Assembly: GCF_014235875.1 (NCBI RefSeq)
Contig: NZ_JACJUK010000008.1
Span: 1-64,000, forward strand
Reading direction: 5' to 3'
Source of the DNA: Croceivirga lutea
Lineage (GTDB): Bacteria > Bacteroidota > Bacteroidia > Flavobacteriales > Flavobacteriaceae
DNA length: 64,000 nucleotides
A model generated the notes under the pieces. The model was not told the origin of the DNA. It saw only the letters and a list, made by a program, of their open reading frames with translations, and searched no databases. Below are positions 11,547 to 52,396 of the stretch, piece by piece; within the stretch, counting starts at the first letter, position 1; each line of letters begins with the position of its first letter. The translations under genes were made by a program, and so were the position numbers.

Positions 11547-11831
11547 TACAATAAGCAGGTTTAAACTATTAGTTATAAGCATTATTCGGGGACTATAAAA
11601 TTAGTTTTTAATTTACAAAATATCGACAAATTGGTCGTTTAATTCGATGAACTACCGCAAAATATGAAAATTCTTACAGGACATAACTCTTAATATGTAA
11701 AATTACCATTTAGCCATTAAAATTTGGAAGTTTGCAGTTTAGACGGTTTTTTTGGTAAACACAACTAGAAAAACTTATAAATAGCTTCAGTTTCAATTGC
11801 CTTTTGAGATATTTGCATCAAACTCTAATCA
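11547..11831. promoter_or_regulatory. Divergent intergenic region between lyase-like gene and epimerase operon
   Basis: AT-rich spacer between two divergent genes, so it should hold promoters for both. It contains ATATCGACAA at 11620-11629, also found upstream of the oxidase gene at 3697-3706, and an imperfect inverted repeat CGAC-AAATTG-GTCG at 11624-11637. No exact TAnnTTTG box was found in either direction; near matches (TATTTTG on the minus strand) occur twice. Confidence 0.3.
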
Positions 11832-28731: not shown

Positions 28732-31104
28732 TTATCCAAACACTTGATACCACTTTTTAGGTTTAGCACCGTAACCGTAACCATATTTACCTGCATAACC
28801 AAGATTAGAGTTTTTAACATCGTTAACTACAAATGCTAAGCCATTAATCTTACCTTCTCTTTGTAGTCGTATTGGATAATCTACAACGCTAGTTTCAGAA
28901 ACACCTGCTCTTGTTACATAAATGGTATGATTTACATAAGGTGAAATTAATAACGTATCCGTAACTAGCATCAACGGTGCTGTATCTAATAATACGTAAT
29001 CATATAAATCTGAAACTTGAGAAAGTAGAGCACGTAACCTATCTCGCATTAAAAGCTCAGAAGGGTTAGGTAAGATTTTTCCAGAATAAATCACATCTAA
29101 TTTTGCTTCATCAATGTTTATTTTATTGACTAAATCACTCAATTCTAAAGACGTGTCTTGAAGATATTCTGACAAACCGTATTCATAATCCTTTGATTTT
29201 GACGAACTTTTTTTACTAGACGAACTTTCGTTAAAATATTGATACATTTTAGGGTTTCTAATGTCAGCACCAACTAAAAGAACACGTTTACCAGCCGTTG
29301 CAAGAATTTTAGCTAAGTTGGTAGATAAAAAAGTCTTACCTTCTCCTGAAACACTAGATGTAATCAATACAACATTATTGTGTTTTCCAGTCTTAGATTT
29401 AATTAGATAATCAAGATTGGTTCTCAATATCCTGAGTGATTCACCAAGTACAGACCTATCATCTTGACCCACAATTTTTCTAGATTTACCATTTAACTTG
29501 GGCAGCTCGGCCAGTATAGGGTAATCTGTTACTCTTTGTTCTAAAGTAGATTTATTATGAATTTTGTTATCTAAATTGTGTTGTAGGTATAAAACACTAA
29601 ATGGTAATAAAAACCCAACAATACAACTAGCCAGATAAATTTTTAATCTGTTAGGTGATATGGGATCTTTGCTTTCTAAATAAGCAGCATCAATTACCTT
29701 TGATTTAGGTGAAGCAGAAGCTAAGGCAACCTGAGATTCTTCCCGTTTTTGTAATAAATACAAGTATAGTGACTCTGTTGTTTCCTGCTTTCTAGTTATA
29801 TCTCTTAACGCTCTTTGATTTGTTGGAGCTGAATAGATTCGAGACTGTATACTAGATTGTCTACTACCTAAATTATTAACCTGTAGGGTTAAATTATTCT
29901 CTATATTATTTAAACTAGACTGTAAGCTTCTTTTTAAACCGCTAAGTTGTTCATCAATATTGACAATCATTGGGTTCTTTTCGTTCGAGCTTTTTAACAA
30001 TCTATTACGTTCCTGAACTAATTGATTGTATTTTGAAGTTGTATTTGCAATAGAAGCATCATTTAAACCAATATTTGATGGCAAAACATCATACCCACCT
30101 TGGTTATCAACCATATTTTTCATAGATGAAGCTACCGCCAATTGTGTTTGTGCATTTTGCAGTTCTTGTTGCGTAGCTGCTCCTAAATTGATATTTACAT
30201 CTGCCTGAGAGGCAATATTAGTAATACCTCTTCTCGTCATAAATTCTTGAGCACTTTGGTCTACATTAGAAAGATTAGAGGCAATATCATTTATTCTATC
30301 ATTAATAAAGGTGAACGTTTTGTCTGCAATTTCTTTTTTATCATTTATTGCATTTGCGTTGTAGACCCTAATTAATTCATTTAAAATGTTAATTGCCTTT
30401 TGAGGAACTGCTTCTTCTAAAACTAGATTTATTACTTTAGAATCTTCTTCTATTGTGCCAATTTTTACTGCTTCTTTATAATATTGTGCAACCTTAGCTA
30501 AAGGAAGTATAGATACTTTTATTACTTGATTTTTATATTCGTTAAAATAGTCTAGATTAGGAGTTACAATTATTTCACCAATTTTTGTCTTAATTGTTTT
30601 CCCAAATGCCATTTTAGTAAAGTCATTATTCTCATCTTCACTGTAACCAAAACTATTATCAGAATTTAAGTTTACGTAAAAAGAAAACTCAGAATCATAA
30701 ATAATTGAATCTGCTTCTAATAAATTTACACTGATAGGAGTATCAACATAAACTTCACTTTCTTTAACATCTCCAATTACTTTAAAATTAACATTTAGTT
30801 TTAAATTTTTTGCTACTTCTAAAAAATTAGATCTACTAGATAGAACTGAAATTTCATCCTCAACTGCATTTTGTTTTCCTCCTAAAAAATCTAATTCTGT
30901 AAAAACTGCCAATTCAGGAGAAGCTCCTTTTTCTTCGAGTATTTGAATTTGTCCTTTAATTGAATATTTTGGGGTGGCATACCTATTGTAAATCTTAGCA
31001 AGTGCTAGGAAAACAAATAGTGATAGCGCAAACCAATACCACTTTTTTAAAAGTAATTTTACTATACCATTTAAATCAAGATCAATGTTTTTATTATCTG
31101 ACAT
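28732..31104 (-). CDS. Second polysaccharide co-polymerase / tyrosine autokinase (Wzc-like)
   Basis: 790 residues, same architecture as the protein at 3751-6156 and clearly paralogous throughout. The Wzz domain has membrane helices near residues 20-40 and 490-510, with a coiled-coil periplasmic region between them. The kinase has Walker A SSVSGEGKT, Walker A' LLVGADIRNP (again Gly in place of the first aspartate), Walker B VLLDTAP and tyrosine tail GKYGYGYG. A poly-serine/lysine stretch (ESSSSKKSSSKSKDYEYG) lies after Walker A' and is not in the first copy. It probably controls length or export of the polymer made by one of the two assembly systems. It ends 7 bp from the convergent priming-transferase gene. 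Confidence 0.92.
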   Translation of the reverse strand: MSDNKNIDLDLNGIVKLLLKKWYWFALSLFVFLALAKIYNRYATPKYSIKGQIQILEEKGASPELAVFTELDFLGGKQNAVEDEISVLSSRSNFLEVAKNLKLNVNFKVIGDVKESEVYVDTPISVNLLEADSIIYDSEFSFYVNLNSDNSFGYSEDENNDFTKMAFGKTIKTKIGEIIVTPNLDYFNEYKNQVIKVSILPLAKVAQYYKEAVKIGTIEEDSKVINLVLEEAVPQKAINILNELIRVYNANAINDKKEIADKTFTFINDRINDIASNLSNVDQSAQEFMTRRGITNIASQADVNINLGAATQQELQNAQTQLAVASSMKNMVDNQGGYDVLPSNIGLNDASIANTTSKYNQLVQERNRLLKSSNEKNPMIVNIDEQLSGLKRSLQSSLNNIENNLTLQVNNLGSRQSSIQSRIYSAPTNQRALRDITRKQETTESLYLYLLQKREESQVALASASPKSKVIDAAYLESKDPISPNRLKIYLASCIVGFLLPFSVLYLQHNLDNKIHNKSTLEQRVTDYPILAELPKLNGKSRKIVGQDDRSVLGESLRILRTNLDYLIKSKTGKHNNVVLITSSVSGEGKTFLSTNLAKILATAGKRVLLVGADIRNPKMYQYFNESSSSKKSSSKSKDYEYGLSEYLQDTSLELSDLVNKINIDEAKLDVIYSGKILPNPSELLMRDRLRALLSQVSDLYDYVLLDTAPLMLVTDTLLISPYVNHTIYVTRAGVSETSVVDYPIRLQREGKINGLAFVVNDVKNSNLGYAGKYGYGYGAKPKKWYQVFG

Positions 31105-31159: not shown

Positions 31160-33046
31160 TTATCTAAGTGGAATAATTCCTCCTTGGTTTACATTTTTAG
31201 TTCGCAAGTTATAAAGATTCTGCCATTGTCCAGGTTTAAATTCCTGTATCAATTTAAAAATTTCATTATAACTCTCTGTATTTAGTACTATATTTAAACA
31301 TAAACTCTCAATTATTTGCTGAATTTCTTCAGGAGATTTAGTATTTGAAATTACCACTTTTTCAATTGGAGGCTTTTGAAATACTTTATTTTCAAGTGAG
31401 CTTGAATAATTTTCATTCATGAACTGTGCTTTCTTCTTTTTGGATTTAAAATTAAACTGATTGTATTCTTCACCAGAATAGATTTTGATTAGGTTAATCA
31501 ATAATTCTGTGTTAATCTCCATTCCCAAATTGGAATTTACAATGCCACCTAAATTCTTAGCACTAGAAGCACAATAAATCAACGTGTTTGCAACGTCTTG
31601 TCTATTAGTAAAAATTTTAGACAGTTCGTAACTACTTAAATCTATACTCCTCCCCGACTCTAACTGCCATTTTATATAACTAACAAATGAATTTTCAGAA
31701 TCAAATACCTTATTAAAACGTATAGAAGTAAAAATGTTCTTTTTTGAAAGTTCATTTAAAGTATCTAAATATATTTCTGATAAGCGTTTACTAACTTCAA
31801 TTGTTGTACCGGGTAATTCGGCTGAAATACTAGAACAAAACAAAAAGCTATCAACATTGTTGTCAAGTGCTAAATCAGCCAATTGTTTAGTTGCAAACAC
31901 ATTTTCTTTTAAAACATTAATAATATTGTTATCAAGAACATCAGGATTGTTATTACCTGCCGTGTGTAAAACAATATCAGGTTTGTAACTTTTAAAAATT
32001 CCTTTGAGCAATTTAGAGTCCTTGACGTCTCCGAGTTTAGATACAAATTCAAACTTCGAAATTCCTTCACAATATGTTGTAATATGATTTAATGCTGACT
32101 CAGAATTATCTAAAAGCAACAAATTACTCTCTATTCCTAAATTAGCAAGATTTTGAATAAACTGTGTCGCAATAGAACCACCTGCGCCCGTAACTAAAAT
32201 TTTCTTAGCACTAAGACCTTTTTTAATACTATTTGTAGAGTTTTCAATATTTAATTGTGGTGCTAAAATAGTTTCCAGCTTTATTTCTTCTAAATAAACT
32301 TGCTTTCCAGACTTACCTTCTTTTTTACCAACTAAAAAAACTGGTTTTGATAATTTTGAAATTTGTTCGAGACTAGAAAAAAACTGTTTTTGATTATCAA
32401 AAGAAACTTGAATAAGTATATCATCAATTACATTGTCTTCCAAGAAAGAAGGAGTTACTAATTTTTTTAAATCTTCGGATAAGGAAATTGAATCAATAAC
32501 ATTTTTATTAGCTTCTTTAAGTGAGTTTACAACTTTTTGAAACTCTGAAGAATTGCTATCCAAATCGTGCAATAGTAGTGAATTTGAAGAAACAACAAAC
32601 CAATCTTTTACACCTATTAATACGCTTTTATAGAGCTGTCGGGCTAGTAACAAAGCTCCAAAACTAACCACTGAATGAACTAATATAATGGAAAGAGGAA
32701 TTGAAAAATTTTCTTCAAAATTTAGCTTAGCATTTACAACCGCGAAAATTATAGTAAGAATGTTTGCAAGACAAATAGCATTAAAAATGCTGTAAACCTC
32801 CTTTAACTTATCAAAACGTACTAATCCTCTATAAATTCCAATAAGTAAGAATATTAACGAACTTATTGCAATTACGATAGGTAATTGAATAATTAAGTTA
32901 TGTTCATTTATTTCTGGAAAAATTTTTGCGCAAATCCAATAAGACAAAGCAAAGGATATACCAGTTAATACAATATCAATAATAAAAATTAAACCGATTG
33001 GGAAAAGCCGTTCTGGTATAATTCGTTTTTTAGTAGGTTGAGACAT
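31160..33046 (-). CDS. Degenerate CapD/WbpM-like membrane protein, probably not a dehydratase
   Basis: 628 residues, full length and uninterrupted. Four N-terminal helices and overall layout match the dehydratase at 7006-8943. However, the first Rossmann glycine motif is gone (WFVVSSNSLL where the paralogue has YGAGESG), the second is altered (TGAGGSIATQ at about 286-295), and the active-site STDK is replaced by SSIS (405-408), with Ile for the catalytic Met. Only the last lysine (VSK, 420) survives. Loss of the Asp-Lys pair argues against 4,6-dehydratase activity. It lies 55 bp upstream of the second autokinase. It could be a structural or regulatory partner of that kinase; this is inference. 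Confidence 0.85.
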   Translation of the reverse strand: MSQPTKKRIIPERLFPIGLIFIIDIVLTGISFALSYWICAKIFPEINEHNLIIQLPIVIAISSLIFLLIGIYRGLVRFDKLKEVYSIFNAICLANILTIIFAVVNAKLNFEENFSIPLSIILVHSVVSFGALLLARQLYKSVLIGVKDWFVVSSNSLLLHDLDSNSSEFQKVVNSLKEANKNVIDSISLSEDLKKLVTPSFLEDNVIDDILIQVSFDNQKQFFSSLEQISKLSKPVFLVGKKEGKSGKQVYLEEIKLETILAPQLNIENSTNSIKKGLSAKKILVTGAGGSIATQFIQNLANLGIESNLLLLDNSESALNHITTYCEGISKFEFVSKLGDVKDSKLLKGIFKSYKPDIVLHTAGNNNPDVLDNNIINVLKENVFATKQLADLALDNNVDSFLFCSSISAELPGTTIEVSKRLSEIYLDTLNELSKKNIFTSIRFNKVFDSENSFVSYIKWQLESGRSIDLSSYELSKIFTNRQDVANTLIYCASSAKNLGGIVNSNLGMEINTELLINLIKIYSGEEYNQFNFKSKKKKAQFMNENYSSSLENKVFQKPPIEKVVISNTKSPEEIQQIIESLCLNIVLNTESYNEIFKLIQEFKPGQWQNLYNLRTKNVNQGGIIPLR

Positions 33047-33247: not shown

Positions 33248-34618
33248 ATGCCAAAAAAATCCATTTTAAGCACTTTAGAAAGAAAGTCAATTTTAATACT
33301 TGGAGACTTCGTAATCGCAGGATTTTCTTTAAAGAACTTTGTTTACAATGCTATTGATTATCAAGGTAGAGGAAGTCAAGAGACGGAATTAACCATCTTT
33401 TTCTTAGGATTTTTGTCTTATGCTATGATGGGGTATGTTTTAGATCATTACAATATTGAAAAGATAACTGATTCTAAAATTGTACCAAGGGTTAGAAGTG
33501 CGAGCGTAACGTTTGGTTTTGCAATTCTACTGATAATTATTACCACCATTTTATTTGATTTTGCGTATTGGAGAATACATCTTTTAATATTTATGTTCTT
33601 TTTCCCACTCCAAATTTTAATCTGGAGAGAATTATTTAATTACATATTCAAATTTGTTCCTACGACAAAAAACGTTCTTTACCTGTATGACGAATCCACA
33701 TCAGATAGTATACAAAACAATATTGAACTCATTAACGGAATAGATAAAAAAACCTACTATAATGTGGTTGAATATGTAATGAATCTTGATGAAATATCAA
33801 GCAATGGTAAAGATTTAAATGAACTGCATAACGTTGATTCTTGGATTATTAACACTAGAAATTATGATAATTTTTCAGAGAGCTTAGAAAGAAACTTGGT
33901 GAACACTATTTTATCTGGTAATGAGGTAATTACCTATACTTCTTTTTATGAAACTGTCTATGAAGCGCTTCCAATAACGTCTCATAACGACAGTATTTAT
34001 GAAATACTACAATTAAAAAATACAAAGATTAGATATATACAAAGTATCGTAAGTTTTAATTTTAATCTTATCTTAAGTATTGTTACAGGAGCTATTTTTT
34101 TCTCGGTTGTTCCCTTTGTTTTTATTCTTAATTTATTCTTTAATCGTGGTCCATTATTTTATACTCAATTACGGGTTGGTAAATATGGTAAAGAATACAA
34201 GATTTTTAAGTTTAGGTCTATGGTTGTCGATGCCGAATCTAAAGGTGCACAAATGGCAAAGAAAAATGACGCTAGAATAACTGCTTTTGGCAAAATACTT
34301 CGAAAATTTAGAATTGATGAATTACCTCAAATATTATCAGTTATTAGAGGAGATATGGTATTCATAGGCCCTAGGCCAGAACGAAAAGTTTTTGTTGATA
34401 AACTAAATGAAGTCACTCCTTTCTATAACGTAAGACATCTCGTTAAGCCGGGTATAACTGGCTGGGCACAAGTAAAATACAAGTATGGAGAAAATCTTCA
34501 AGACTCTATTCGCAAATTGGAGTATGACTTGTATTACATTAAAAATAAATCGGTATCCTTAGACATTAGAATTATCTTTAAAACGATGACCACAATTCTC
34601 TTTTCTAGAGGAGTTTAG
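33248..34618 (+). CDS. Polyprenyl glycosylphosphotransferase (WcaJ-like initiating sugar transferase)
   Basis: 456 residues. Four N-terminal helices (about 10-140) are followed by a soluble CoA-binding-like region, one further helix near 270-290, and the bacterial sugar transferase domain (about 285-456). That domain carries KFRSMVVDAE, the basic-acidic FRIDELPQ motif, GPRPER and KPGITGWAQV. It starts a repeat unit by moving hexose-1-phosphate (usually glucose or galactose) to undecaprenyl phosphate. It stands alone on its strand after a divergent promoter and ends 125 bp before the oxidase gene. It is the second priming enzyme after the WecA-like one at 27747. Confidence 0.92.
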   Translation: MPKKSILSTLERKSILILGDFVIAGFSLKNFVYNAIDYQGRGSQETELTIFFLGFLSYAMMGYVLDHYNIEKITDSKIVPRVRSASVTFGFAILLIIITTILFDFAYWRIHLLIFMFFFPLQILIWRELFNYIFKFVPTTKNVLYLYDESTSDSIQNNIELINGIDKKTYYNVVEYVMNLDEISSNGKDLNELHNVDSWIINTRNYDNFSESLERNLVNTILSGNEVITYTSFYETVYEALPITSHNDSIYEILQLKNTKIRYIQSIVSFNFNLILSIVTGAIFFSVVPFVFILNLFFNRGPLFYTQLRVGKYGKEYKIFKFRSMVVDAESKGAQMAKKNDARITAFGKILRKFRIDELPQILSVIRGDMVFIGPRPERKVFVDKLNEVTPFYNVRHLVKPGITGWAQVKYKYGENLQDSIRKLEYDLYYIKNKSVSLDIRIIFKTMTTILFSRGV

Positions 34619-34710: not shown

Positions 34711-34743
34711 CCTTTCATATAGCCCCCAATTAATAAATACGCT

Positions 34744-37700
34744 ATGAGAACAAAAGGACTATACTACCTATTCCTACTATTTACATTTTTTAATCAAATT
34801 AATTTCACTTCTGCCCAAAGTAATGTAGAAGGCGAATGGAGTAATCCCATAAACATGGGTATCGTTCCTGTTGCAGTAGCCAACTTGCCAGACGGCAGAC
34901 TATTATGTTGGTCATCGCAGTTTAGAAACACCTTCATAGAAGCAGGTGATGGAGCAACATTTTCACAATATTTTGATTACCGTTTAAACAATGGTTTAGG
35001 TGGTGTTGATGGTGCTGAATTTACCATGAATACCGATCATGACATGTTTTGTCCAGGTATCAATAATCTACCAGACGGTAGGTTACTTTCTGCGGGTGGT
35101 ACTAGCAGTTCAAAAACAAGCATTTTTGATCCTTCTACCGGTTACTGGTCAGTAGCATCAGAGATGAATATACCAAGAGGTTATCAAGGTAACGTAACCA
35201 TGAGTGATGGTAATGTATTTACTGTTGGTGGATCATGGAGTCAAGGTGCTTCAAACAACGGTGGAAAAGATGCAGAAATTTGGTCACCAACAACGGGTTG
35301 GATTACACTCCCTGAAATTCAAGGTGATGATATTTATACTGGTAATGATTTAGCAACTGAAGAACAAGGGGTGTATCGTTCAGATAATCATGTTTGGTTA
35401 TGGCCTGCTCCAGATGCTCCTAACAAAATTTTTCATGCTGGTCCGAGTGAAGAAATGCATTGGATAGACCCGTTTGCTACTGACGCAAGTGGGAATTTGG
35501 TTGGTGAAATGTTAAATGCAGGTTTTAGACAAGACGCTGGAGAAACAGACGGTTATTCTATGAAAGGGAACACCGTAATGTATGATACTGGAAAAATTTT
35601 AAAAATTGGTGGTGCTACGCAATATGGTGTAGATTTTAACACAACTACCCTTGCTCGTTCAAATTCTTTTGAAATTGATTTAAATGGAGTTGTTTATGGT
35701 CAAAATCCAAATGTAACTTTTACTGGAAATATGGCTTATGAACGTATCTATCATAATAGTACGGTTTTACCAGACGGTAAAGTATTGGTTACAGGCGGTA
35801 GTACCGTTGCTGCTTTATTTAGCGATACTTATGCAGTTTTAGAAGCAGAATTGTTCGATCCAGAAGCTCCTGCTGGTAACAAATGGAGTACTGTTGGTGC
35901 TATGCAAGAAGCGCGCACCTATCATAGTGTAGCTATTTTGATGCCAGATGCTAGAGTATTTGTTGGTGGTGGAGGTCTTTGTGATGGTAGTAATCCTAAT
36001 TGTGAAAACCATTTTAATGCTGAAATATATAGCCCGCCCTATTTATTTGATACTAATGGCGATTTAGCTACAAGACCCGAAATAACTAATTTTACGGGAG
36101 GCAATTCAGTAGGAACTTATGGTGAAATAGTAGTTGATTACAATACAACACTTTCGCTAAGCACAGACGTTAATATATCAGAGTTTAGCTTAATCCGCTT
36201 TTCAGCAGCAACACATTCAACTAATAATGAGCAAAGAAGAATTTCTTTAACAGGCTCTGGTAATACATCTCACTCACTTTCGATTCCAGATAGAAATATT
36301 TTACCTCCTGGTTTTTATATGCTTTTCGCGATAGACAACAACGGGGTACCAAGTATTGCAGAAACTTTAAAAATTGGTGATGCGCTGCCTTTACCAATTG
36401 CGAACAATCCAAATCTTGTTTTAGAACTAAATTTTGATGAAACAAGTGGTATCAATGTCGCAGATTCTTCTGGAAACAATAATAATGGTACAATAGTACA
36501 AAGAGACGATAATGGTAATCCTGTTGCTGCTGTAGACCATCAATTTGTTTCGGGTTTATTTGGTAACGCAATTGAATTTGATGGTAAAGAATTTCAAAGT
36601 AATTCTATTATTGAAATGGATAATAGCAGCTCATTTCAAACTTTACAAGATAAGGTTACTATGAGTGCATGGGTTTATAGAGACATTGATGCTATTGTAC
36701 CAGAAGACAATAATAAAATTGCCAATGTTGCCGTATTTGCACATGACTATCCAACCAATTTCTTTGGTTTCCACAACTCACTTTACAAATGGTCTTTTCA
36801 AACTACTAACGGTTTTGTAAATGTATACTCAGGATATGCACCACTTGCCGGTTGGAATCATATAGCAGGCGTTTACAATGGTGAAACTTTAAAACTATAT
36901 GCCAATGGGGTACAAATAGGCCAAGGCAGTATCACAGGTAATTTAACTGGTCTTGCCGATGGTAGTGATTTTAGTAAAATGACAGTTTCTGGTTTTTACG
37001 ATGGTAATATTGATAATAATAGGATTTTACCAATCAAAGAATGGGGAAATGAAAGCGGAATCACAGATGAAGTTGATGGTCGAATAGATGATTTTAAAAT
37101 TTATAATGTAGCCCTAGGAGCTGAAGAAATCGCTAATATATTTAAAGAGGGCTTAGCCACTAACAATAGTGAGGTCCCTAATTGTGAAGGAAATTACCTA
37201 ACAGTTGAATATAAAATTGGCACTGGAAATTGGCAAACAAGTACAACAAATAGAATTGTAGCTAATGAAGGTGATGAAATTTTTATAAGAGCTAAAGATT
37301 TTAATGGTGAATATTTTATAACAACTTCTCAATATGACGGTCCAACTTTTAATACCGTAAACGACACAGATAAGTTAACAACTGAAGGTGCTTATCAAAT
37401 TGATACGTTTGTAAATGTTTCTTTAGCACCTTGGAATAATGCAGACCGTGGTAATGGTTTATTAGATTCTTCTAACAACGGATTTTTTGTATTAACAACA
37501 CCAGAAGGTTGTCCAACGGCCATTGAGTTAGAAGTTTTAGGAAGCTGTGACCCAGGTGATACCGAGATATTTGCTGAGTTTCAAATAAATGGGGTTTGGT
37601 GTGATAATCCTAATTCAGCATTCCCATGTGGTTCAGAAACCATTACAATTGATGAAGGCACAAAGCTGATAATAAGTGCAACTCCGAATAGCAATACTAA

Positions 37701-40700
37701 TCCAGAAGTCTATCCATTAACTATCAAATTACCTAATGGAATATCAACTGGCGATAATTATACAATAGAAAGTGTAGATAGCCTAAATGATTCTGGAATT
37801 TATACGATTATTTCAGCTGAAGGTTGTTCAAAAACCTTAGAAGTTATTATAAATGAAATAGACTGCGCTACCTACCCCTTGCAATCTGAATACCAGATAA
37901 ATGGAGGCACATATGTTCCTGGCCAATCATCTGTTGATGTAAATGTGGGTGACCGTCTTATATTAAGCGTAACACCTAATAATGTTCCATTTAGTATAGT
38001 ATCCAACTCCACCAACAACAATAATAAAGTTAACGGCACTGCAGACTTGGTTATAGAGTCTATAGATTTAAATGATGCGGGAACCTATATTTTTACTACT
38101 TCTAGTGGTTGTTCAACAGAACTAACCGTTAATGTTGGTGATCCGGATTGCACCTCCTTGGATTTAGAAACACAATATCAAATTAACAGTTTTGGTCCAT
38201 ACATATCTGGTGCCACTCAGGTTACCTTAGATGAAGGCAATAATATTACCTTGAGTATTCTGCCGGACCAAATACCATTTAGTATTAATAGCACATCAGT
38301 TAATGGAAATCAAAAAGATTTTAATACTTCTGACCTAGATTTATCCAACGTTACAACTAATGATGCTGGTCTGTACACGTTTACCACTGGTGCAGGTTGT
38401 GTAGTAGAACTCGAAGTTATAGTAAATACTGTAGATTGCACAGCCCTTGATTTACAAACCGAATACGAAATTAATGATTCGGGAAATTTCGTGGTTGGAG
38501 AAAACGAAGTTAGAACCGCAATAGGTGATGATATTTTATTAAGTGTTTTTCCTAACCAAAATAATGGTACAGATATTTCATTTGAAGTAAGAAATCCTGG
38601 AGGTATAATTGTAAAACCTTTAAACCCAGGTGACTTTATTCTTGGTGATATACAAGAATCTGATGAAGGAATCTATACCATGACAAGCAGTAGTGGCTGT
38701 GAAATAACTATAATTGTTCTAGTTGGCTTAAATGATAGTCCTGCCGCAAATATTATTGCTACCCCACTATCTGGCACTGCTCCTTTAGAAGTTAATTTTG
38801 ATGCATCAGGAACAACAGACGATGGGCTTATTGCATCGTATAGTTGGGACTTTGGTGACGGAAATACAGCAACAGGTGAAACAGCCACCAATACGTTCAC
38901 CAATGAAGGTATTTTTACGGTCACCTTGACCGTAGAAGATACTGAAGGTGCACAAAATTCTACCACCGTTGAAATTAATGTAAGTGCGGCAAATGAAGCT
39001 CCTGTTGCTGATGCCACAGCAACTCCTCTAAATGGTCAAGCCCCTTTAGAAGTAAGTTTTAGTGCAGCCAATTCAACTGATGACAATGGAATCGTTAGTT
39101 ACGCTTGGGATTTTGGTGATGGAATCGGTACTTCTACTGAAGAAAATCCGGTGTATACGTATGCAACTGATGGCATATTTACTGCCATACTTACAGTTAC
39201 TGATGCTGAAGGCCTAGAAGACACTGCAAATATAGAAATTACTGTTACCCCTGCTAATGAAGCTCCAATAGCGGTTGCAGAAGCAACACCAGTATCTGGT
39301 ATTGTGCCTTTAGAAGTTAATTTCAATGCTGCAAATTCAACTGATGATGCTGGTATAGTATCGTATGCTTGGGACTTCGGTGATGGTTCATCGGTAGTTA
39401 CTATAGAAAACCCAACACATACCTACACTGCTTCTGGTAATTTTACAGCTACCTTAACGGTAACAGATGCTCAAGGTTTAGAAAATAGTGATACTGTTGC
39501 TATTACTGTAGAAACACCAGATAATCAAGCACCTACTGCTGTAGTTGATGCCACACCAACAACGGGTACTACACCTTTAGAAGTGGTATTTAGTTCAGAT
39601 GGTTCAACCGATGATAAAAGTATTGTTTCTTTTGCCTGGGATTTTGGTGATGGTACCGGAAATTCCACTGAAGAAAATCCAACATACACCTATACCACAT
39701 CAGGTGATTTTACAGCTACCTTAACAGTAACTGATGCCGAAGGACTTCAAAATACAGCATCTATTTTAATTACAGTAGATGCACCAAATGAAGCTCCAGT
39801 TGCAGATGCTTCTGCAACACCACTATCAGGTAATGCGCCTTTAGAAGTAAGCTTTAGTTCAGATGGTTCTACAGATGATACAGCCATTGTTTCCTACACT
39901 TGGGACTTTGGTGATGGCTCAGGAACCTCAACCGAAGAAAACCCAACCTATACCTATACTACAATAGGTAATTACACGGCTACCTTAACCGTAACAGACG
40001 CAGAAGGTTTAGAAGACACCGCAACAGTTGAAATCTCAGTTACAGAAAATACTGGAGGCAATCAAGCACCTTCGGCAATTGCTTCTGCAACACCACTAAC
40101 AGGTAATGCTCCTTTAGAAGTAAGCTTTAGTTCAGATGGCTCATCAGATGATACAGCCATTGTTTCCTACACTTGGGACTTTGGTGATGGCTCAGGAACT
40201 TCAACCGAAGAAAATCCAACCTATACCTATACAACAATAGGGAATTACACGGCTACCTTAACCGTAACAGACGCAGAAGGTTTAGCAGATACCGCAACAG
40301 TTGAAATCTCAGTTACAGAAAATACTGGAGGTAATCAAGCACCTTCGGCAATTGCTTCTGCAACACCACTAACAGGTAATGCTCCTTTAGAAGTAAGCTT
40401 TAGTTCCGATGGTTCTACAGATGATACGGCCATTGTTTCTTACACTTGGGACTTTGGTGATGGCTCAGGAACCTCAACGGAGGAAAACCCAGCCTATACT
40501 TATACAACAGTTGGCGTATTCACCGCCACCCTTACAGTTACCGATGCCGAAGGATTAGAAGATTCCGCAACGGTAACCATTACTGTTGAGCAAGAAACAA
40601 TGAATCAAGCACCAGAAGCAGTGGCTACGGCTACACCAATCTCTGGAGAAGCTCCTTTAGAGGTAGCATTTAGTTCTGTAGGTTCTTCTGATGACGATGC

Positions 40701-41145
40701 AATTGCTAGTTATAGCTGGGATTTTGGAACTGGAGACACTTCAAATGACGAAAATCCAATTTATGTATTCCAAAACGAAGGGGAATATACCGTTACCCTA
40801 ACAGTAACAGATACAGAAGGGTTAACAAACACGGCTGAGTTAGAGATTATCGTAATTGAAAATGACCCAACGGCTATTGAACAAAATGTGACCATTGCAC
40901 CAAACCCTGCGACTACTACAGCAAATATTTTTGTAGAAAATCCTGAAGGTATTTTAACCACCAAAATTGGTTTGTATGACGCAGCTGGTAAATTAATCTA
41001 CACTTTTGTTCCGAGTGATGTTTACAATAATGCAACAGATTCTTACGAGTTACCCATAACAATTTTAACCAATGGCTTATACATGGTTAAAATTGAATTT
41101 AATCAAGGTGACCCAGAATCGATTAAACTGTTAGTAAGAAAATAG
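34744..41145 (+). CDS. Secreted galactose-oxidase-like copper radical oxidase with PKD repeats and T9SS type A domain
   Basis: 2133 residues. Signal peptide 1-25. Oxidase domain about 28-545, with Cys103 (HDMFCPGI), Tyr147 (PRGYQGN), Trp165 (GGSWSQG), Tyr393-His394 (RTYHS) and His491 (SAATHS): all residues that form the Cys-Tyr crosslink, stacking Trp and copper ligands in fungal galactose oxidase, with the same 44 and 18 residue spacings. Next come LamG (about 558-800), five Ig-like repeats containing EYQIN-type segments (about 813-1328), eight PKD domains with WDFGDG (about 1330-2038) and a T9SS type A sorting domain (about 2040-2133). It should be exported and attached to or released from the cell surface. 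The likely reaction is oxidation of a primary alcohol, probably on a sugar, with H2O2 release. Substrate inferred only. Confidence 0.9.
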   Translation: MRTKGLYYLFLLFTFFNQINFTSAQSNVEGEWSNPINMGIVPVAVANLPDGRLLCWSSQFRNTFIEAGDGATFSQYFDYRLNNGLGGVDGAEFTMNTDHDMFCPGINNLPDGRLLSAGGTSSSKTSIFDPSTGYWSVASEMNIPRGYQGNVTMSDGNVFTVGGSWSQGASNNGGKDAEIWSPTTGWITLPEIQGDDIYTGNDLATEEQGVYRSDNHVWLWPAPDAPNKIFHAGPSEEMHWIDPFATDASGNLVGEMLNAGFRQDAGETDGYSMKGNTVMYDTGKILKIGGATQYGVDFNTTTLARSNSFEIDLNGVVYGQNPNVTFTGNMAYERIYHNSTVLPDGKVLVTGGSTVAALFSDTYAVLEAELFDPEAPAGNKWSTVGAMQEARTYHSVAILMPDARVFVGGGGLCDGSNPNCENHFNAEIYSPPYLFDTNGDLATRPEITNFTGGNSVGTYGEIVVDYNTTLSLSTDVNISEFSLIRFSAATHSTNNEQRRISLTGSGNTSHSLSIPDRNILPPGFYMLFAIDNNGVPSIAETLKIGDALPLPIANNPNLVLELNFDETSGINVADSSGNNNNGTIVQRDDNGNPVAAVDHQFVSGLFGNAIEFDGKEFQSNSIIEMDNSSSFQTLQDKVTMSAWVYRDIDAIVPEDNNKIANVAVFAHDYPTNFFGFHNSLYKWSFQTTNGFVNVYSGYAPLAGWNHIAGVYNGETLKLYANGVQIGQGSITGNLTGLADGSDFSKMTVSGFYDGNIDNNRILPIKEWGNESGITDEVDGRIDDFKIYNVALGAEEIANIFKEGLATNNSEVPNCEGNYLTVEYKIGTGNWQTSTTNRIVANEGDEIFIRAKDFNGEYFITTSQYDGPTFNTVNDTDKLTTEGAYQIDTFVNVSLAPWNNADRGNGLLDSSNNGFFVLTTPEGCPTAIELEVLGSCDPGDTEIFAEFQINGVWCDNPNSAFPCGSETITIDEGTKLIISATPNSNTNPEVYPLTIKLPNGISTGDNYTIESVDSLNDSGIYTIISAEGCSKTLEVIINEIDCATYPLQSEYQINGGTYVPGQSSVDVNVGDRLILSVTPNNVPFSIVSNSTNNNNKVNGTADLVIESIDLNDAGTYIFTTSSGCSTELTVNVGDPDCTSLDLETQYQINSFGPYISGATQVTLDEGNNITLSILPDQIPFSINSTSVNGNQKDFNTSDLDLSNVTTNDAGLYTFTTGAGCVVELEVIVNTVDCTALDLQTEYEINDSGNFVVGENEVRTAIGDDILLSVFPNQNNGTDISFEVRNPGGIIVKPLNPGDFILGDIQESDEGIYTMTSSSGCEITIIVLVGLNDSPAANIIATPLSGTAPLEVNFDASGTTDDGLIASYSWDFGDGNTATGETATNTFTNEGIFTVTLTVEDTEGAQNSTTVEINVSAANEAPVADATATPLNGQAPLEVSFSAANSTDDNGIVSYAWDFGDGIGTSTEENPVYTYATDGIFTAILTVTDAEGLEDTANIEITVTPANEAPIAVAEATPVSGIVPLEVNFNAANSTDDAGIVSYAWDFGDGSSVVTIENPTHTYTASGNFTATLTVTDAQGLENSDTVAITVETPDNQAPTAVVDATPTTGTTPLEVVFSSDGSTDDKSIVSFAWDFGDGTGNSTEENPTYTYTTSGDFTATLTVTDAEGLQNTASILITVDAPNEAPVADASATPLSGNAPLEVSFSSDGSTDDTAIVSYTWDFGDGSGTSTEENPTYTYTTIGNYTATLTVTDAEGLEDTATVEISVTENTGGNQAPSAIASATPLTGNAPLEVSFSSDGSSDDTAIVSYTWDFGDGSGTSTEENPTYTYTTIGNYTATLTVTDAEGLADTATVEISVTENTGGNQAPSAIASATPLTGNAPLEVSFSSDGSTDDTAIVSYTWDFGDGSGTSTEENPAYTYTTVGVFTATLTVTDAEGLEDSATVTITVEQETMNQAPEAVATATPISGEAPLEVAFSSVGSSDDDAIASYSWDFGTGDTSNDENPIYVFQNEGEYTVTLTVTDTEGLTNTAELEIIVIENDPTAIEQNVTIAPNPATTTANIFVENPEGILTTKIGLYDAAGKLIYTFVPSDVYNNATDSYELPITILTNGLYMVKIEFNQGDPESIKLLVRK
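39808..40610 (+). repeat. Tandem 273-bp PKD-encoding repeats, three copies
   Basis: Units begin at GCTTCTGCAACACCACTA at 39808, 40081 and 40354, an exact 273-bp (91-codon) period. The first two units are nearly identical over their whole length; the third matches until about 40490 and then drifts. They encode PKD domains 5-7 of the oxidase. Silent positions are also conserved, which points to recent duplication or gene conversion rather than selection on protein alone. The other PKD units in the gene are clearly more diverged. Confidence 0.9.
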
Positions 41146-41164
41146 ATTAACTTACTGGCAAACT

Positions 41165-41212
41165 AAAAAGGCTGTTCCAATATCTACTAGATATAAGAAC
41201 AGCCTTTTTTTT
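41165..41212 (+). terminator. Rho-independent terminator after the oxidase gene
   Basis: AAAAAGGCTGTTC (41165-41177) pairs with GAACAGCC plus a run of eight T (41197-41212), a stem of about 12-13 bp with a 19-base loop. It lies 20 bases after the oxidase stop codon. The A-tract before the stem would let it also work in the reverse direction, but there is no gene approaching from that side. Confidence 0.85.
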
Positions 41213-41304: not shown

Positions 41305-44300
41305 ATGAAAATAAAGGTGCTTCTTACTTTTGCCTTTTTTTGTTTTCTATCCTCAACCACTATTCTTGCCCAAGATTCTGACGGGGACGGCGTTGATGAT
41401 ATTGTAGATATAGACGATGACAATGATGGTATCGTAGATGGCTTAGAATGTGAAGTACCAGTAGCTAACTTTAGTTTTGAAACACCCGCTTTTTACGCCG
41501 CTGCTGATAATTGGATTCCTACCACGGGTAATTCGGGATGGGGAACGCATAATGTAGATGCCAATAATTATTTAGCGACCGGTGGAGTTCCTGATGGAGT
41601 ACAATTTTTATTTTTAACTTCCAATTCAACAACTGTACCCTCTTCAGTTGTATTGAACACATTTTCTAAAACTTTTGAAATAGGAACTTACACGTTAACG
41701 GTGTCAGTAGGAGACGGAATTGCTGATAGACCCGCAGATAATGATGGCCAATCAATAATAGAAATTGGATATGGTACTGATGCCTTAAATTTTACCCCAT
41801 TGGCGCAAACAGTTATAGATGGAAACACCACTATACCAGGTACTTGGACAGATTTTAATGTGTCTTACAATGTGGCCGCAGGCGATGCTGCTCTTGGTTC
41901 AGGAGTTTTAGTTAGAATTTCACATACGGGAACTAGTGCCCCCTTAACCGGTAATTTAGCAAATTCTGGAAGAGGTCATTACGACAATATCAGAATCACA
42001 AAAGATACCGATAGTGATGGCCTTCCTGATTGTATTGATCCAGATTCTGATAATGATGGTTGCCCAGATGTTGATGAAGCTGGGTTTACCAATTCTGGCA
42101 CAGATACATTAAGCGGTGTAGGATTTGATGCTAACGGTCAAGTAACCGGAAACGCAGATGGTTATACCATAACGAGCGGGTATGTTACGGATTTTATCAA
42201 TCATTGCATAGATAATGAAGATTATGATAACGATGGCATTGCCAATGTTCAAGATATTGATGATGATAATGATGGTATTTACGATAGTTTAGAATGTGAT
42301 ATTCCCATAACAGAGTCAAATTTTGAAAACTCCGTCAATCTATTAGCTGGATGGGACCCTGGCATATCTACTGGTGTGCGGGGTATAGAAACTATTTTTG
42401 ACGGAACTAATTATAACAATTCGCCTCAAGGTGCTGGATATCTATTTCTAAATGGCGATATACAAATAACACAAATAACACCAGGTGCTGCGTTTGAACC
42501 AGCAGACTATATAGTAAGTCTTCTTGTTGGTGACGGATTAGTTTATGATAATTTATTCCGTAATGATGGTCAATCAATAATTGAAATAGGATTTGATAAT
42601 GGTACTGGTTTTCAACAGCTTGCTAATAATGGGTCTTTAACCATAGAACCTTATGATACTCCTAACGGTTCATGGACCAAATTTACCTTTACAGCAACTG
42701 TTAACGCTGGTGACCCATCCCTTGGTTTTGGCATTTTAATGCGTATAACGCATAGTAGTAATGCAGCACTGTTGCAATCACAAGGAAATTATGACCAAAT
42801 ACGAGTAACAAAAGATAGCAATAGGGATGGCATACCAGACTGTTTCTCTTTAGATTTTGATGGTGATGGTTGTCCAGATGTTGAAGAAGCTGGTTATACA
42901 AATTCTGGTTCAGATACATTATCAGGTAGTGGTATTGACCCAATTACCGGAGAAGTAATTGGAAATACGGATGGGTATACTGGAACCACCCAGGCAGTAT
43001 TAAGCAATACAATTAATTCTTGTACAGTTGATTTAGATTTTGATAATGATAGCTATAATGATGATACTGATTTAGATGACGATAATGATGGTATTTTAGA
43101 TATTTATGAATGTGAAATTCCTATTGCTAATTTTGGATTTGAGAATGATGATTTACCCACTAATCCAGTTGCTGATTGGCGTTACACGCCTGGAACTAAC
43201 TCTGATACTTATGGAATTGAAAACCCAGCTGCGATTGATGGTTCAAATTATAATGCCGCATCAGAAGGAAATACGTATTTATTATTAAATGGAGATGGGT
43301 CATTAACCTTAAACACTGTTTATGCTACTTATGAAGTTGGGCATTATGATTTATCTATAAGAGTTGGTGATGGTTTGGATTTTGGAAATCCCTACAGAAA
43401 TGATGGTAGAAGCATTATTGAATTAGGGTATCATGATGGGGATTACAATAATTTTCAACCAATTACCAACGGAGTACTTACAATTGAAAATTTTGAAACA
43501 ACACCTGGACTCTGGTCTGAGTTTAGTATTAATGGAGAAGTTGCAACAGGAGATGCTGCACTCGGTCAAGCAATTTCAATTAGAATTACTCATGAGGGTA
43601 ATGTTGCAGCTAACCAACTTCAAGGAAATTATGATTGGATTGTAATTACCAAAGATTCTGATGGTGATGGTGATGCTGACTGTGTTGATAGAGATTCAGA
43701 TAATGATGGCTGTTCCGACACTATTGAAAGTCGTCATTTAGAAAATGGCTTTGGCATTTTAGATGGAACAGGAGTTAATACAGACGGCACAGTCATAGGT
43801 TTCGCAACGGGTTATTTAGGTAATGATAATGCAGTTTTAGATGCTAATATAAATCAATGTAATGTAATCGATACTGATACAGATGGGATTGAAGATGGTA
43901 ACTACTTTTATCTAGATGCAGGTAACATTCTTCAGTTTGATATTGATTTAGATAATGATAATGATGGAATATCTGATGATGATGAGGGTTGCAATTTAAC
44001 TGATGGCCCCGATAGAGGATTTTACAATTTCGAATTTCCTGGTAACGACTTTGCAACAAGTGGCTTCACAGTACCCAATACATCATATGCAGATTTTTGG
44101 AATGCTCCTTTAGGTGTTGGTGGTGGTGTACACATGGTCTCCGCAGAAACCTATGGTGCTTTTGATGTAAACTTTGATAGAGATGGTACGCGTTTAATAG
44201 ACCTTCCAGAACCAAATCAAGATAACGATAGTTATTTATATTTAAATGAAACTACCTCAATTACTCAAAATACCTCTGCTATTGTCATTGACGAAGGTTC

Positions 44301-47300
44301 ATACCTTATTACAATTGCTATTGGAGATGAATTAGATGTAGAAAACAGATTTAGAAATGACAATTTAAGTGTTATAGAAGCAGGTTATGACAACGGTGGT
44401 GGATTTACCGCTCTAGGCAATTTAACTGTTCAGGGGCACGAAACTCCTAATGGTACTTGGAAAGATTTTTCGTTTACCGCTACATCTACACCTGCCTCAG
44501 TGGGCGAAGATTTATTAATTCGTATAAGTCATACAAACAATTCTGCCTTAAATCAGAGCCGAGGTAGTTATGACCATATTAGAATAAAACTAGATTCAGA
44601 TGCAGATGGTATTCCCGATTGTGAAGATTTAGACTCAGATAATGATGGTTGTCTAGATGTTACCGAAGCTGGCTTTGATCAAGACTTAGATGGCATATTT
44701 GATGGTGGAGTTACTGTAAATGCAAATGGTGAAATCAATGGACATTCTTATGTAGTTGACCCAATTAACTTGCAAAATACAAGAACTTTTTCAACACCTG
44801 CTATTATCAATAATCCATTAGTAAATCAAACTGCTTGTGAAGGAGACAATGCAGCCTTTTTTATTGATGCGTCAAGAGCGGGAACCAACCCAACCATAGC
44901 GTATGAATGGACAATTAGTACTGATGGTGGCACAACGTTTACTCCTATTACTGAAACATCCAACACCTTAACCCTTACTGGAGTTGTTGCTACAGATGAT
45001 GGCAACATTTACAGAGTCCGTGTAATGGGTGATGATAATTTATGTTATGAAGAATCGCAAGCAACACTTACCATAACTCCAGGCCCTACTACACCTTCGG
45101 TAACCCCAGTAATCGCAGCAATTTGTGAAGGTGCCAATGCAGAATTTACCATTACAGGTGATGCTGGAGCAACTATTGAATACACTATTAATGGGGGTGC
45201 TATACAAACCGCAACTTTAGATGGTTCAGGTTCATTTACTGTTACTGAAAATGCGGTTACGGTAGATACTGTAATTGAATTGACCTCTATTAATAATGGT
45301 AGTTGTACGCTAGCCTTAGCTCCTACTCTTACTGAAACGGTAACGGTAAGTGCAATTCCTTCCATTACCAACGCACCAACTACCTGTTCTGCAGATTTAA
45401 GTACCTACGATGTAGATATTTCAGTTAGTGCTGGAACCCTTGCTAACCCTAGTGCTGGCACATTAGTTGGTAACGTAGTTAGTGGTATACCAGCTGGGAC
45501 AGATATTACTATAGAAGTAAATAATAATGGCTGTTTCGTAGTTCTTCCAATCACAGCACCAAATTGTAGTTGCCCAACGGTAAATCAACCCATTAATCCA
45601 GTGAATGCTGGATCATGCGAGGGTACACCCAACAATCCAATAAGTGTAGAATTGGACCCCTTGGGAGCGGGTGATACTATTAATTGGTATGATGCACCAA
45701 CTGGAGGTACTTTATTGGGCACAGGACTTTCATTTACTTCTACAGAGACATTACCTGGCATTTACACCTATTATGCCGAGGCGGAAGAAGCAGTTTCAGG
45801 TTGTGTTAGCAGCACAAGAGTACAAGTAGTGTACTCGATAAATTCAAATGTTATAGCAGATGTAATAGCCTCTCCTATTGAAGAATGTGATGCGTATATT
45901 TTACCACCATTAAGTGCGGGCAATAACTATTTCACAGGTCCTGGAGCAACAGGATTATTACTGAATGCCGGGGATGCTATTACAACATCTCAAACCATAT
46001 ACATATATGCAGAATCTGGCACAACACCTAATTGTACTGATGAATCTAGTTTCGATGTTACCATTTATCAATCCCCAACATTACAATTTCAATCTTTAAT
46101 TTGTTCTGCAGATTTAGCAACCTATACAGTCACTTTACAACCTTATACGGGTACAATATCTTCAGTAACAGCAGGTACAATTGTTGATAATCTAACAGTC
46201 ACAAATATCCCTGCTGGAACTGGCATTGAGATTTTTGTAGAAAATGGAATATGCACACCTTCCATTTTTGTTCAAGCACCTAACTGTACTTGTCCTGTTT
46301 TAGATGCTCCCGTTAACCCGCAAAACGGTTCCAATTGTGAAGGGGAACCTACCGCAACTATTGCTGTAGATATACCCACCACTGGTGACAGTATTGATTG
46401 GTATGATGCACCAACTGGCGGAAATCTTCTTGTAACCGGTGCTTCTTCATTTACACCTACAGAAACCTTACCCGGCACTTATACCTATTATGCAGAAACT
46501 GTAGAAAGTATTTCTGGTTGCACAAGTGATACGCGGACCGAAGTTACCTTAACTATTGCCACACAGCCAACAGCTGACGTTTTTGCTGACCAATTGGTTT
46601 GTGAGCGTTACACACTACCAAATTTAAGCGCCAACAATACGTTTAGAACAGAAACTAATGGTAATGGTACACAATTAAATCCTGGTGATGTGATTACAAC
46701 TTCGCAGACTATTTACGTATATGCAGCAAACGCGGTAAATGCTAATTGTTTTGATGAATCTAGTTTTCAGGTAACAGTTACCCCTAGTTCGGAAGCACCA
46801 ATAAACCCAACAAACGGTTTTAATTGTGAAGGGCAGCCTACAGCTGCACTCTCCGTAGAATTTCCACCATCCAATGGAGATACCATTAATTGGTATGATG
46901 CAGAAGTTGGTGGAAACCTTGTAGCTACAGGAACTGCCTTCATTCCAACTGATAATTTGGCAGGTACTTACACGTACTACGCTGAAAATAGTGATTCTAC
47001 TAACCCTAGCTGTGTAAGTTCGAGAACTGCAGTATCCCTCACCATAACAGCGACTCCGATAGTAGACTCGAGCAATGATATAGAAGCTTGTGAATTTTAT
47101 GAGTTGCCAAATCTTAGTGCTAACAACCGGTATTTCTCTGGCCCTAATGGTACCGGAACACAACTATTTGCTGGAGAACAATTGATTGCTGATCAATTAA
47201 TTTACATAAGAGCAGAAAGTTCTCAAAACCCAGATTGTAGTGCAGAGTCAAGTTTTAGTGTTGTTATTTTAAATGAACCCATACTAATGTTCCCTGAAAT

Positions 47301-48124: not shown

Positions 48125-49003
48125 TTAATAAAAATCAGGAATAAAGTTATCTTCATATGTTGAAGATTTCACACTTTTTGTCATAAAATAAAGAATGTGA
48201 TTGAAATTCCATGCTGCAATTATTTGATCACGTCGAATAAATAATTTGTCTCTTTCCAATGTTTTACCAAAAGTCATATGGCTACCCCTAACAGCGGTTG
48301 AACAAGATTCGTAACCCATTTCAAAAACAGCTTCAAATGCTTCCTTAGAAAAACATTCAAATTTCCCATAAGGGAAAGCAAAATGTTTAATTTCTCCGCA
48401 ATGAGTTTCTAAAATATCTTTACTTTCTTTTAAATCTTTTTTAAAATTTGGGATAGACATTTTAGAGACCATATCATGAAACAGGGTATGTGAGCCAATT
48501 TCATGTCCCTCATCAATCAAATCATTACAATCTTTCCAAGTCATAAATTCAATTGGAGGCATTTCAAGTTTTACCTTACAAAACTCTTTAATCATATCAT
48601 AATCGGTTAAACCAATGCTGTGTGGATTTACAAAAAAACAACAAGATGCTCCATACTTGGTTAAGATTTCACCAGCATCTAAATTATTTTTAAATCCATC
48701 ATCTGAGCTCCAAGTTATATAAGGCTTATCAACGGTATTGTTGGTAAGACGATGTATTGCTTCACTGTGAGATATAAAGGTGTGTGTCTTAGATAAGGTT
48801 GCAACTAATCTTTCAAAATTTAATTTTTCATCCTCAAAGACATGATGAAAGTATAAAAAATGAATCCTAGGCTGTATTAAATACGTATCCCTAACAAGGC
48901 TATTTGCAATGGAGAGTGTATCTAATGCGATGTTTCTGAGATAAAATCGAAAATTTTTACCCCAATACTTTTGAACCTCATTAAAAGTAGTACAATACTT
49001 CAT
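48125..49003 (-). CDS. Polysaccharide deacetylase (NodB-like)
   Basis: 292 residues, no signal peptide recognised. NodB motifs: TWSSDDGFKNN (about 95-105) with the catalytic and metal aspartates, GSHTLFHDM (about 157-165) with the H-x3-H ligands, and FAFPYGKFE (about 198-206). The usual Arg before Pro in motif 3 is Phe-Ala-Phe here. It is of different type from the protein at 25469. It likely removes an acetyl group from a sugar of the polysaccharide or its precursor. It is convergent with the giant repeat protein (58 bp gap) and divergent from the beta-helix lipoprotein, so it is probably a single-gene unit. Confidence 0.85.
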   Translation of the reverse strand: MKYCTTFNEVQKYWGKNFRFYLRNIALDTLSIANSLVRDTYLIQPRIHFLYFHHVFEDEKLNFERLVATLSKTHTFISHSEAIHRLTNNTVDKPYITWSSDDGFKNNLDAGEILTKYGASCCFFVNPHSIGLTDYDMIKEFCKVKLEMPPIEFMTWKDCNDLIDEGHEIGSHTLFHDMVSKMSIPNFKKDLKESKDILETHCGEIKHFAFPYGKFECFSKEAFEAVFEMGYESCSTAVRGSHMTFGKTLERDKLFIRRDQIIAAWNFNHILYFMTKSVKSSTYEDNFIPDFY

Positions 49004-52393: not shown

Positions 52394-52396
52394 TAC

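Follow-up and report, generated by a model that had tools for sequence, protein, structure and literature searches.

Galactose oxidase, a textbook example of a radical enzyme, has a natural role that is poorly understood. In 2013 its physiological role was called elusive in a passage of PMC3543389. The gene for the copper-radical oxidase GlxA of Streptomyces is tied to a polysaccharide synthase gene (parts of PMC11022532 and PMC3543389), and excerpts of PMC11022532 describe a complex of GlxA with the cellulose-synthase-like enzyme CslA, to which truncated GlxA still binds but whose activity it lowers. In Stigmatella aurantiaca, the galactose-oxidase-like gene fbfB stands beside a divergent glycosyltransferase gene and its mutation abolished fruiting bodies (excerpts of PMC3543389); it is by that description that we liken it to the present case. 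Both serve as precedents for an oxidase tied to its producer's own glycan. Here we describe AA5a, a galactose-oxidase homologue of Croceivirga lutea encoded in a stretch of 64,000 nucleotides (NZ_JACJUK010000008.1, positions 1 to 64,000; hereafter the window), where its gene lies with a second copy, AA5b, among genes for exopolysaccharide (EPS) synthesis and export. On balance, we favor the view that AA5a is an AA5_2-like copper-radical oxidase that leaves the cell through type IX secretion and acts on primary alcohols of the cell's own EPS.

A first-pass annotation of this DNA had read AA5a as a galactose-oxidase homologue with a complete active site, and our searches bear it out. The reading frame starts with ATG, contains zero internal stops and encodes 2133 amino acids. 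Searching solved structures with phmmer, we observed that residues 15-544 match fungal galactose oxidase 1gof (E value of 3e-94, far beyond chance) and residues 18-544 match 9g8h/9g43 (3e-113), so that the whole module is covered. HMMER alignment to 1t2x gave 211 identities over 485 aligned residues (43.5%). Chains named 'Kelch domain-containing protein' (6ryx, 6ryv, 5c86 and others) also matched the module, with E values from 1e-80 to 2e-77. The profile search that the annotation had proposed gave the module two Pfam families above their cut-offs, GO-like_E_set at 63.1 bits (cut-off, 25) and Kelch_6 at 47.5 bits (cut-off, 25.3). Two other assignments were tried and rejected: the glyoxal oxidase family PF07250 scored 23.8 bits, under its cut-off of 37.5, and the GlxA family (NCBIfam NF052501) scored 131 bits, under a curated cut-off of 800.

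In the alignment to 1t2x, Cys103, Tyr147, Trp165, Tyr393, His394 and His491 stood where the annotation had placed them and fell column for column on Cys228, Tyr272, Trp290, Tyr495, His496 and His581 of galactose oxidase, with spacings of 44 and 18 residues identical to those of the fungal enzyme. AA5a carries, by this alignment, the Tyr-Cys pair and the other copper ligands that define AA5, within a kelch propeller with an E-set domain. At this level of identity to a solved structure, the six residues would be expected to converge on one site in the fold, and AA5a would load copper and be an active oxidase. The second shell is also kept: Phe64, Gln208, Tyr211, Arg212, Tyr294 and Phe359 correspond to Phe194, Gln326, Tyr329, Arg330, Tyr405 and Phe464. 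In the relevant part of PMC11267884, the pair Trp290 and Arg330 marks the AA5_2 galactose 6-oxidases; AA5a has both, as Trp165 and Arg212. AA5a thus shares its whole catalytic unit with fungal galactose 6-oxidase (AA5_2; 1gof and 1t2x). Apart from Gln406, which we consider below, it differs in having a Ser aligned with Cys518 (a Cys follows four residues on) and in its architecture: the fungal chain before about residue 145 was unmatched in the alignment, and AA5a has instead a long tail of LamG, Ig, PKD and type IX secretion domains.

The best structural relative of AA5a by sequence was 9g8h/9g43, named 'Galactose oxidase' and of Micrococcaceae type. It has the same active-site motifs and 44% identity to AA5a (local BLAST), but its chain ends with the module (the match runs to residue 616 of 617) and has no type IX tail. 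The aligned part of 9g8h/9g43 shares 81.5% identity with a protein of Arthrobacter oryzae; hence, a structure of a bacterial-type galactose oxidase exists. We take 9g8h to be the Pseudarthrobacter siccitolerans enzyme, for which a literature search by species name was unsuccessful. GlxA is more distant. The chains 5lxz, 5lqi and 4unm ('Secreted protein'), which are presumably GlxA, matched only residues 335-544 of AA5a at an E value of about 2e-25, and by these scores the AA5a module is nearer to the galactose oxidases (1gof) than to the 5lxz/4unm chains. The partners differ too: that of GlxA is CslA, whereas that of AA5a is a Wzy-type locus.

The annotation had also described characterized bacterial members as few, naming GlxA and FbfB. 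AA5a is less isolated than that suggests, given a bacterial-type structure and 313 stretches with relatives. Bacterial AA5 enzymes are already known, and the homology of AA5a is in itself less unusual than first thought. These relatives came from a scan of a bacterial and archaeal collection (one genome per species for 84,980 species) with DNA patterns for the motifs HDMFCPG or TH[SA]TNNEQ, around Cys103 and His491, respectively. The scan gave 327 candidate stretches, of which 313 were confirmed. The best 80 of the 313, representing 70 loci, were kept, and they include Flavobacteriaceae, Saprospiraceae, Leucothrix, Burkholderiaceae and Arthrobacter. With the C. lutea genome counted, an AA5 gene occurs in 10 of 199 sampled genomes of the family and in 3 of 11 of the genus.

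The six copper and radical residues were invariant in 46 of 46 sequences (AA5a and 45 relatives from the 70 scan loci) and in 17 of 17 family copies. The latter are 17 of the 18 copies found in a protein search with the whole module; a truncated copy in genome G075 (L013/L035; 271 aligned residues) was omitted. Because the scan patterns surround Cys103 and His491, their invariance in the larger set is partly built in, which is not so in the set of 17. In the 46-sequence alignment, Trp290 was kept in all 46 and Arg330 in 44 (Lys in the other 2), and Gln406 was present in 1.

The annotation had not covered the gene's context. AA5a lies in an EPS locus that also holds a second copy, and this says more about function. 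The window contains 42 open reading frames (ORFs) of at least 100 amino acids; 37 were scanned with Pfam or NCBIfam, and the other 5 are short and overlap larger genes. By gene content it is an EPS region, most of its named genes being for EPS synthesis or export (Table 1). AA5b is 64% identical to AA5a in the module. The sugar transferase ahead of AA5a has EPS_sugtrans as its nearest NCBIfam family (276.7 bits, under the cut-off of 295.55). The window also encodes glycosyltransferases, two asparagine-synthase-like proteins, a pair of flippase-type proteins of the Polysacc_synt_3 family, an aminotransferase (best match to the LegC family, under its cut-off) and nucleotide-sugar epimerases and dehydrogenases whose best matches are TuaD-, TviB- and TviC-like, under equivalog cut-offs. 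Wzy_C was matched twice, at 37.9 and 24.4 bits, with a cut-off of 31.7. The genome yielded three Wzz/Wzc genes; two of these are no more than 4 kb from the window's two AA5 copies. Since AA5a and a second copy lie inside slime EPS genes, the cell's own slime is a likely target.

The genome holds three galactose-oxidase homologues in total, AA5a, AA5b and a third on another contig, and all three keep the six residues. The third copy (L115 1-2333; G000:C14) lies at a contig end and has two near-identical F5/8C stretches. EPS genes of the window type were absent from the 12 kb examined around it.

Table 1. Positions of AA5a, its domains and active-site residues, and other features of the window
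Feature	Coordinates	Strand	Basis
AA5a, galactose-oxidase module at N-terminus of a 2133-aa multi-domain protein	34744..41145	+	ORF list, Pfam, phmmer
Probable signal peptide, AA5a residues 1-25	34744..34818	+	read by eye
Galactose-oxidase module (kelch propeller and E-set), residues 28-545	34825..36378	+	phmmer to 1gof/9g8h
Cys103 = galactose oxidase Cys228 (Tyr-Cys cofactor)	35050..35052	+	alignment to 1t2x
Tyr147 = Tyr272 (Tyr-Cys cofactor)	35182..35184	+	alignment to 1t2x
Trp165 = Trp290 (radical stabilization)	35236..35238	+	alignment to 1t2x
Arg212 = Arg330 (galactose recognition; role from part of PMC11267884)	35377..35379	+	alignment
Tyr393-His394 = Tyr495-His496 (copper ligands)	35920..35925	+	alignment to 1t2x
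GO-like E-set domain (PF09118), residues 444-544	36073..36375	+	Pfam
His491 = His581 (copper ligand)	36214..36216	+	alignment to 1t2x
Laminin_G_3 (concanavalin-like), residues 629-761	36628..37026	+	Pfam
Eight PKD repeats, 261-273 nt period	38731..40854 (end approximate)	+	Pfam, tandem-repeat analysis
Por_Secre_tail (type IX secretion C-terminal domain), residues 2053-2122	40900..41109	+	Pfam, 29.2 bits (cut-off 27)
AA5b, second galactose-oxidase homologue, ~1200 aa visible, with LamG, open to contig end	1..3601	-	
wzc-type EPS chain-length/tyrosine kinase protein; AA5b follows at 149 bp, same strand	3751..6156	-	
wza-type polysaccharide export protein	6191..6979	-	family scan
CapD-type nucleotide-sugar dehydratase (Polysacc_synt_2)	7006..8943	-	family scan
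Pectate-lyase-like protein	10173..11582		Pectate_lyase_4, 28.7 bits (cut-off 24)
Polysaccharide-deacetylase-family protein	25469..26461		
Second wzc	28732..31104	-	Pfam
Second CapD-like protein	31160..33046	-	Pfam
Bacterial sugar transferase (Bac_transf), 125 bp before AA5a, same strand	33248..34618	+	Pfam/NCBIfam
CHU_C type IX secreted protein, 2253 aa, three HpiC1-like domains	41305..48066	+	Pfam
Polysaccharide-deacetylase-family protein	48125..49003		
615-aa protein, acidic Glu/Thr-rich start	49305..51152		zero Pfam matches
gmd (over NCBIfam cut-off) and fcl-like gene (best match GDP-L-fucose synthase, 454.5 bits, cut-off 500)	51278..53485	+	

We observed the same placement in other genomes. 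In 12 genomes, 10 of 20 AA5 copies had a Wzz match no more than 10 kb away, where gene density would predict 0.22. A rough binomial probability of 5e-15 overstates the case because the copies are related. We built a tree of 85 modules from the window, L003, L106, L107 and the 70 loci, counting rows of one locus apart in the clade counts, and the window copies fell within a 40-row clade (support, 100/96). Neighborhoods were searched by BLAST with the window proteins as references, a method less sensitive for distant phyla, and some stretches were short. One or more of capD, wza and wzc lay near 28 of the 40 clade rows, namely the two window copies and 26 others. Another 5 rows had different EPS genes nearby (L046, L055 and L056, and L106 and L107 through L112 and L113). 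Where AA5 adjoins wzc on the same strand (nine loci and the window), it follows wzc at 149 to 334 bp. A nucleotide-sugar epimerase gene follows AA5a on the same strand at 15 to 121 bp in nine loci (L037, L039, L040, L043, L045, L052, L056, L058 and L059). Contigs often break in or soon after AA5 (at 1-3601 in the window, and in L038, L042, L049, L051, L053, L057, L060, L066, L071 and L090), perhaps at the stalk repeats. The neighbor counts are therefore lower bounds.

Eight loci (L036 to L041, L043 and L045) carry a pair of copies that flank the block: the minus strand holds AA5b, wzc, wza and capD, the plus strand holds AA5a, and AA5b lies 161 to 334 bp after wzc. The window shows the same outer AA5b/AA5a pattern with a further EPS cluster in between, and L036, L037 and L038 share with it a sugar transferase gene ahead of AA5a. 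In the tree, AA5b of the window, Sediminicola, a Muricauda metagenome-assembled genome and Croceitalea form one four-row group (100/97). This group falls outside a group of 33 rows (100/97), which contains the AA5a copies of the same taxa (four rows, 100/100). The Maribacter AA5b copies, in contrast, join the Maribacter AA5a copies (11 rows, 100/96). This topology suggests that the pair formed twice, or that gene conversion made the Maribacter copies alike; under either origin, both copies have been kept over several genera.

Perhaps AA5a is an ordinary secreted oxidase that came to lie here by chance or by lineage inheritance, without a functional tie to EPS? The copies of one clade are indeed not independent, and a second conserved chromosomal site exists, as described below. 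However, half of the 20 copies lie near Wzz where 0.22 were expected, the paired forms are separated in the tree, and the linkage appears separately in Cupriavidus. There, Wzc, Wza, a ManC-type protein and glycosyltransferases surround the AA5 gene of L088 (Pfam), and L095 is linked by BLAST only. Excerpts of PMC3543389 add cslA-glxA in Streptomyces and fbfB beside its glycosyltransferase gene in Stigmatella. We consider an origin of this kind very unlikely. The AA5 copies of L088 and L095 lie far from the Flavobacteriaceae copies in the tree.

The annotation had inferred type IX export of a multi-domain protein of 2133 residues, and the signals for it were confirmed: Por_Secre_tail scores over its cut-off, and profile searches for SprA and GldM found both in the genome, at 2873.7 and 443.9 bits. 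AA5a would be exported by this system, and its LamG domain and Ig/PKD stalk may hold it at the surface or in the slime. Among 21 full-length AA5 proteins, AA5a included, GO-like_E_set, Kelch_6 and LamG_3 were found in all 21, Por_Secre_tail in 16 and PKD_4 in 11 (E values up to 1e-5); hence, the module and LamG are constant and the stalk is variable. In the PKD array of AA5a, an adjacent pair of 273-nt units is 93% identical, which points to a recent expansion.

Wzc resides in the inner membrane, and the type IX route places its cargo outside the outer membrane. AA5a would thus lie outside the outer membrane and Wzc at the inner membrane, which argues against the idea that AA5a serves chiefly as a structural or assembly partner in EPS export. 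So does conservation: all 46 aligned sequences retain the six residues, and Arg330, Tyr405 and Phe464 are nearly as well kept, none of which a purely structural role would require. Tight synteny with wza-wzc and the GlxA-CslA complex described in part of PMC11022532 fit such a role, but we regard it as the least probable of the explanations weighed here.

Several findings count against our view that AA5a acts on the cell's own EPS. At 14 loci, 7 within the clade and 7 outside it (L042, L049, L056, L057, L060, L062, L063, L066, L067, L069, L070, L071, L075 and L090), AA5 occupies a non-EPS site beside a row of GH13, GH31, M48, MFS, DUF2807 and extracytoplasmic function (ECF) sigma factor genes. 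In the stretches examined, the row is complete (eight of eight genes) except in L066, which has seven, and L067 and L075, which have four each. L056 combines both settings: the ECF sigma row flanks AA5 on one side, and epimerase/dehydrogenase genes adjoin it on the opposite side. In L064, L067 and L072, the neighbors of AA5 are ordinary genes (10 proteins scanned, one without a match). A universal linkage of AA5 to EPS is ruled out by this second conserved site and these ordinary neighbors. Within the clade, no EPS genes were found in the examined stretch of 7 of the 40 rows (L042, L049, L054, L057, L060, L062 and L063), four of which (L049, L054, L057 and L060) end no more than about 2.2 kb past the module. 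Outside the clade, BLAST with the window proteins placed capD, wza or wzc near only 2 of 45 rows, both of them the Cupriavidus copies.

Nor is AA5 a general accompaniment of EPS. Wzz matches were found in 12 of 12 AA5 genomes and in 8 of 14 control genomes. Since AA5 occurs in so few of the family genomes and Wzz in all 12 AA5 genomes, genomes with Wzz but without AA5 are probably common, and EPS in general probably does not require AA5. Moreover, the sugar genes of the cluster that can be named, by best matches that are mostly under their cut-offs, lead to uronic acids and fucose, which have no free C6-OH. Two further adverse points concern the substrate. Gln406 of galactose oxidase is lost in AA5a, where Gly295 takes its place, and excerpts of PMC11267884 state that when one or both of Gln326 and Gln406 are lost, galactose-oxidase activity is generally, but not always, lost. 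For GlxA, the portion of PMC4736821 on which we draw reports that significant activity on galactose was absent in vitro.

The second site bears on a rival in which AA5a is a real AA5 oxidase that attacks foreign galactans, algal ones for example, for nutrient capture, with the EPS island merely collecting surface genes. The 14 non-EPS loci fit this, as do the relatives from Maribacter and Zobellia, genera that we take to be marine, the two F5/8C carbohydrate-binding domains of the third copy and the Pectate_lyase_4 match in the window. However, the named window genes are mostly for EPS synthesis and export. Among the 37 scanned window proteins, none was named as SusC/D or sulfatase, and the pectate-lyase-like protein was the sole match to a polysaccharide-cleaving family. 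In addition, linkage to EPS genes reappears in several genera, and the two-copy arrangement seemingly arose twice. Because the named neighbors are mostly EPS genes, we rate a galactan nutrient locus as weak and consider this explanation unlikely. ORFs similar to the pectate-lyase-like protein lie near AA5 in six loci.

The loss of Gln406 bears on another rival. Oxidases of the AA5 family produce hydrogen peroxide (H2O2), as stated in part of PMC4736821, and we wondered if H2O2 itself might be the useful product of a real AA5 oxidase, for antagonism, signaling or the feeding of a peroxidase; the substrate would then be some small or general alcohol. The reduced galactose activity that generally goes with loss of Gln406 (excerpts of PMC11267884) agrees with this. 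On the other hand, the Trp290/Arg330 pair is kept in 26 of 26 EPS-clade rows of the 46-sequence alignment, the Pfam and NCBIfam scans of window proteins named no peroxidase family, and the EPS linkage would be left unexplained. We hold this alternative to be quite unlikely. According to passages of PMC4736821, certain Burkholderia carry galactose-oxidase-type genes together with sco. The general scans of the window proteins named no family of Sco-type copper chaperones.

We therefore return to AA5a as an oxidase of the cell's own EPS. AA5a would be a built-in part of a Wzy-type EPS locus and, with its partner copy, would act on the polysaccharide made there. Exposed primary alcohols, most likely the C6-OH of galactose-like residues, would be converted to aldehydes with production of H2O2, and the aldehydes might modify or cross-link the matrix. 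From the active-site comparison, we would expect AA5a to oxidize primary alcohols, with a galactose-like or related pyranoside as substrate and a modest affinity for galactose as a free sugar. A more specific version, which we advance tentatively, is that pairs of type IX secreted copper-radical oxidases, apparently recruited twice to a stable place in the wza-wzc-capD locus, carry out a dedicated oxidative finishing of Bacteroidota EPS in which hydroxyls of the cell's own polymer become aldehydes that harden or anchor the matrix. Two polysaccharide-deacetylase-family proteins are encoded in the EPS region, and we speculate that free amines from these neighbors could react with AA5-made aldehydes.

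The interest of these findings lies in the recurrent, paired placement of AA5 in an EPS export locus. Repeated physical linkage of AA5 to a single kind of polysaccharide export locus makes the natural substrate a defined polymer that can be tested. If our view is correct, an oxidation step would be added to EPS maturation and a matrix-building role to the type IX secreted proteins. On the more specific version, bacterial galactose oxidases would have a general natural job in polysaccharide maturation across unrelated synthesis systems, common to CslA in Streptomyces and the Wzy-type systems seen here and in Cupriavidus. In the open-access literature, we found nothing that by its title links galactose oxidase with type IX secretion or with the EPS of Flavobacteriaceae, which is weak evidence of absence; the few papers retrieved treat, judged by title, carrageenase expression, enzyme engineering and the comparative genomics of Vibrio.

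Some minor features of the region were also recorded. A promoter and terminator scan of 33000-49400 returned 71 promoter-like sites (mean of shuffles, 63.7) and 9 terminator-like sites (shuffles, 9.4), counts too close to the shuffles to mark where operons begin or end. The 615-aa protein listed in Table 1 lies beyond the second deacetylase-family gene. ORFs related to the 2253-aa CHU_C protein recur after the AA5 gene in seven other loci. Finally, a single scaffold of Flagellimonas alvinocaridis carries two AA5 copies, L047 and L055, separated by about 16 kb in which EPS-type genes lie.

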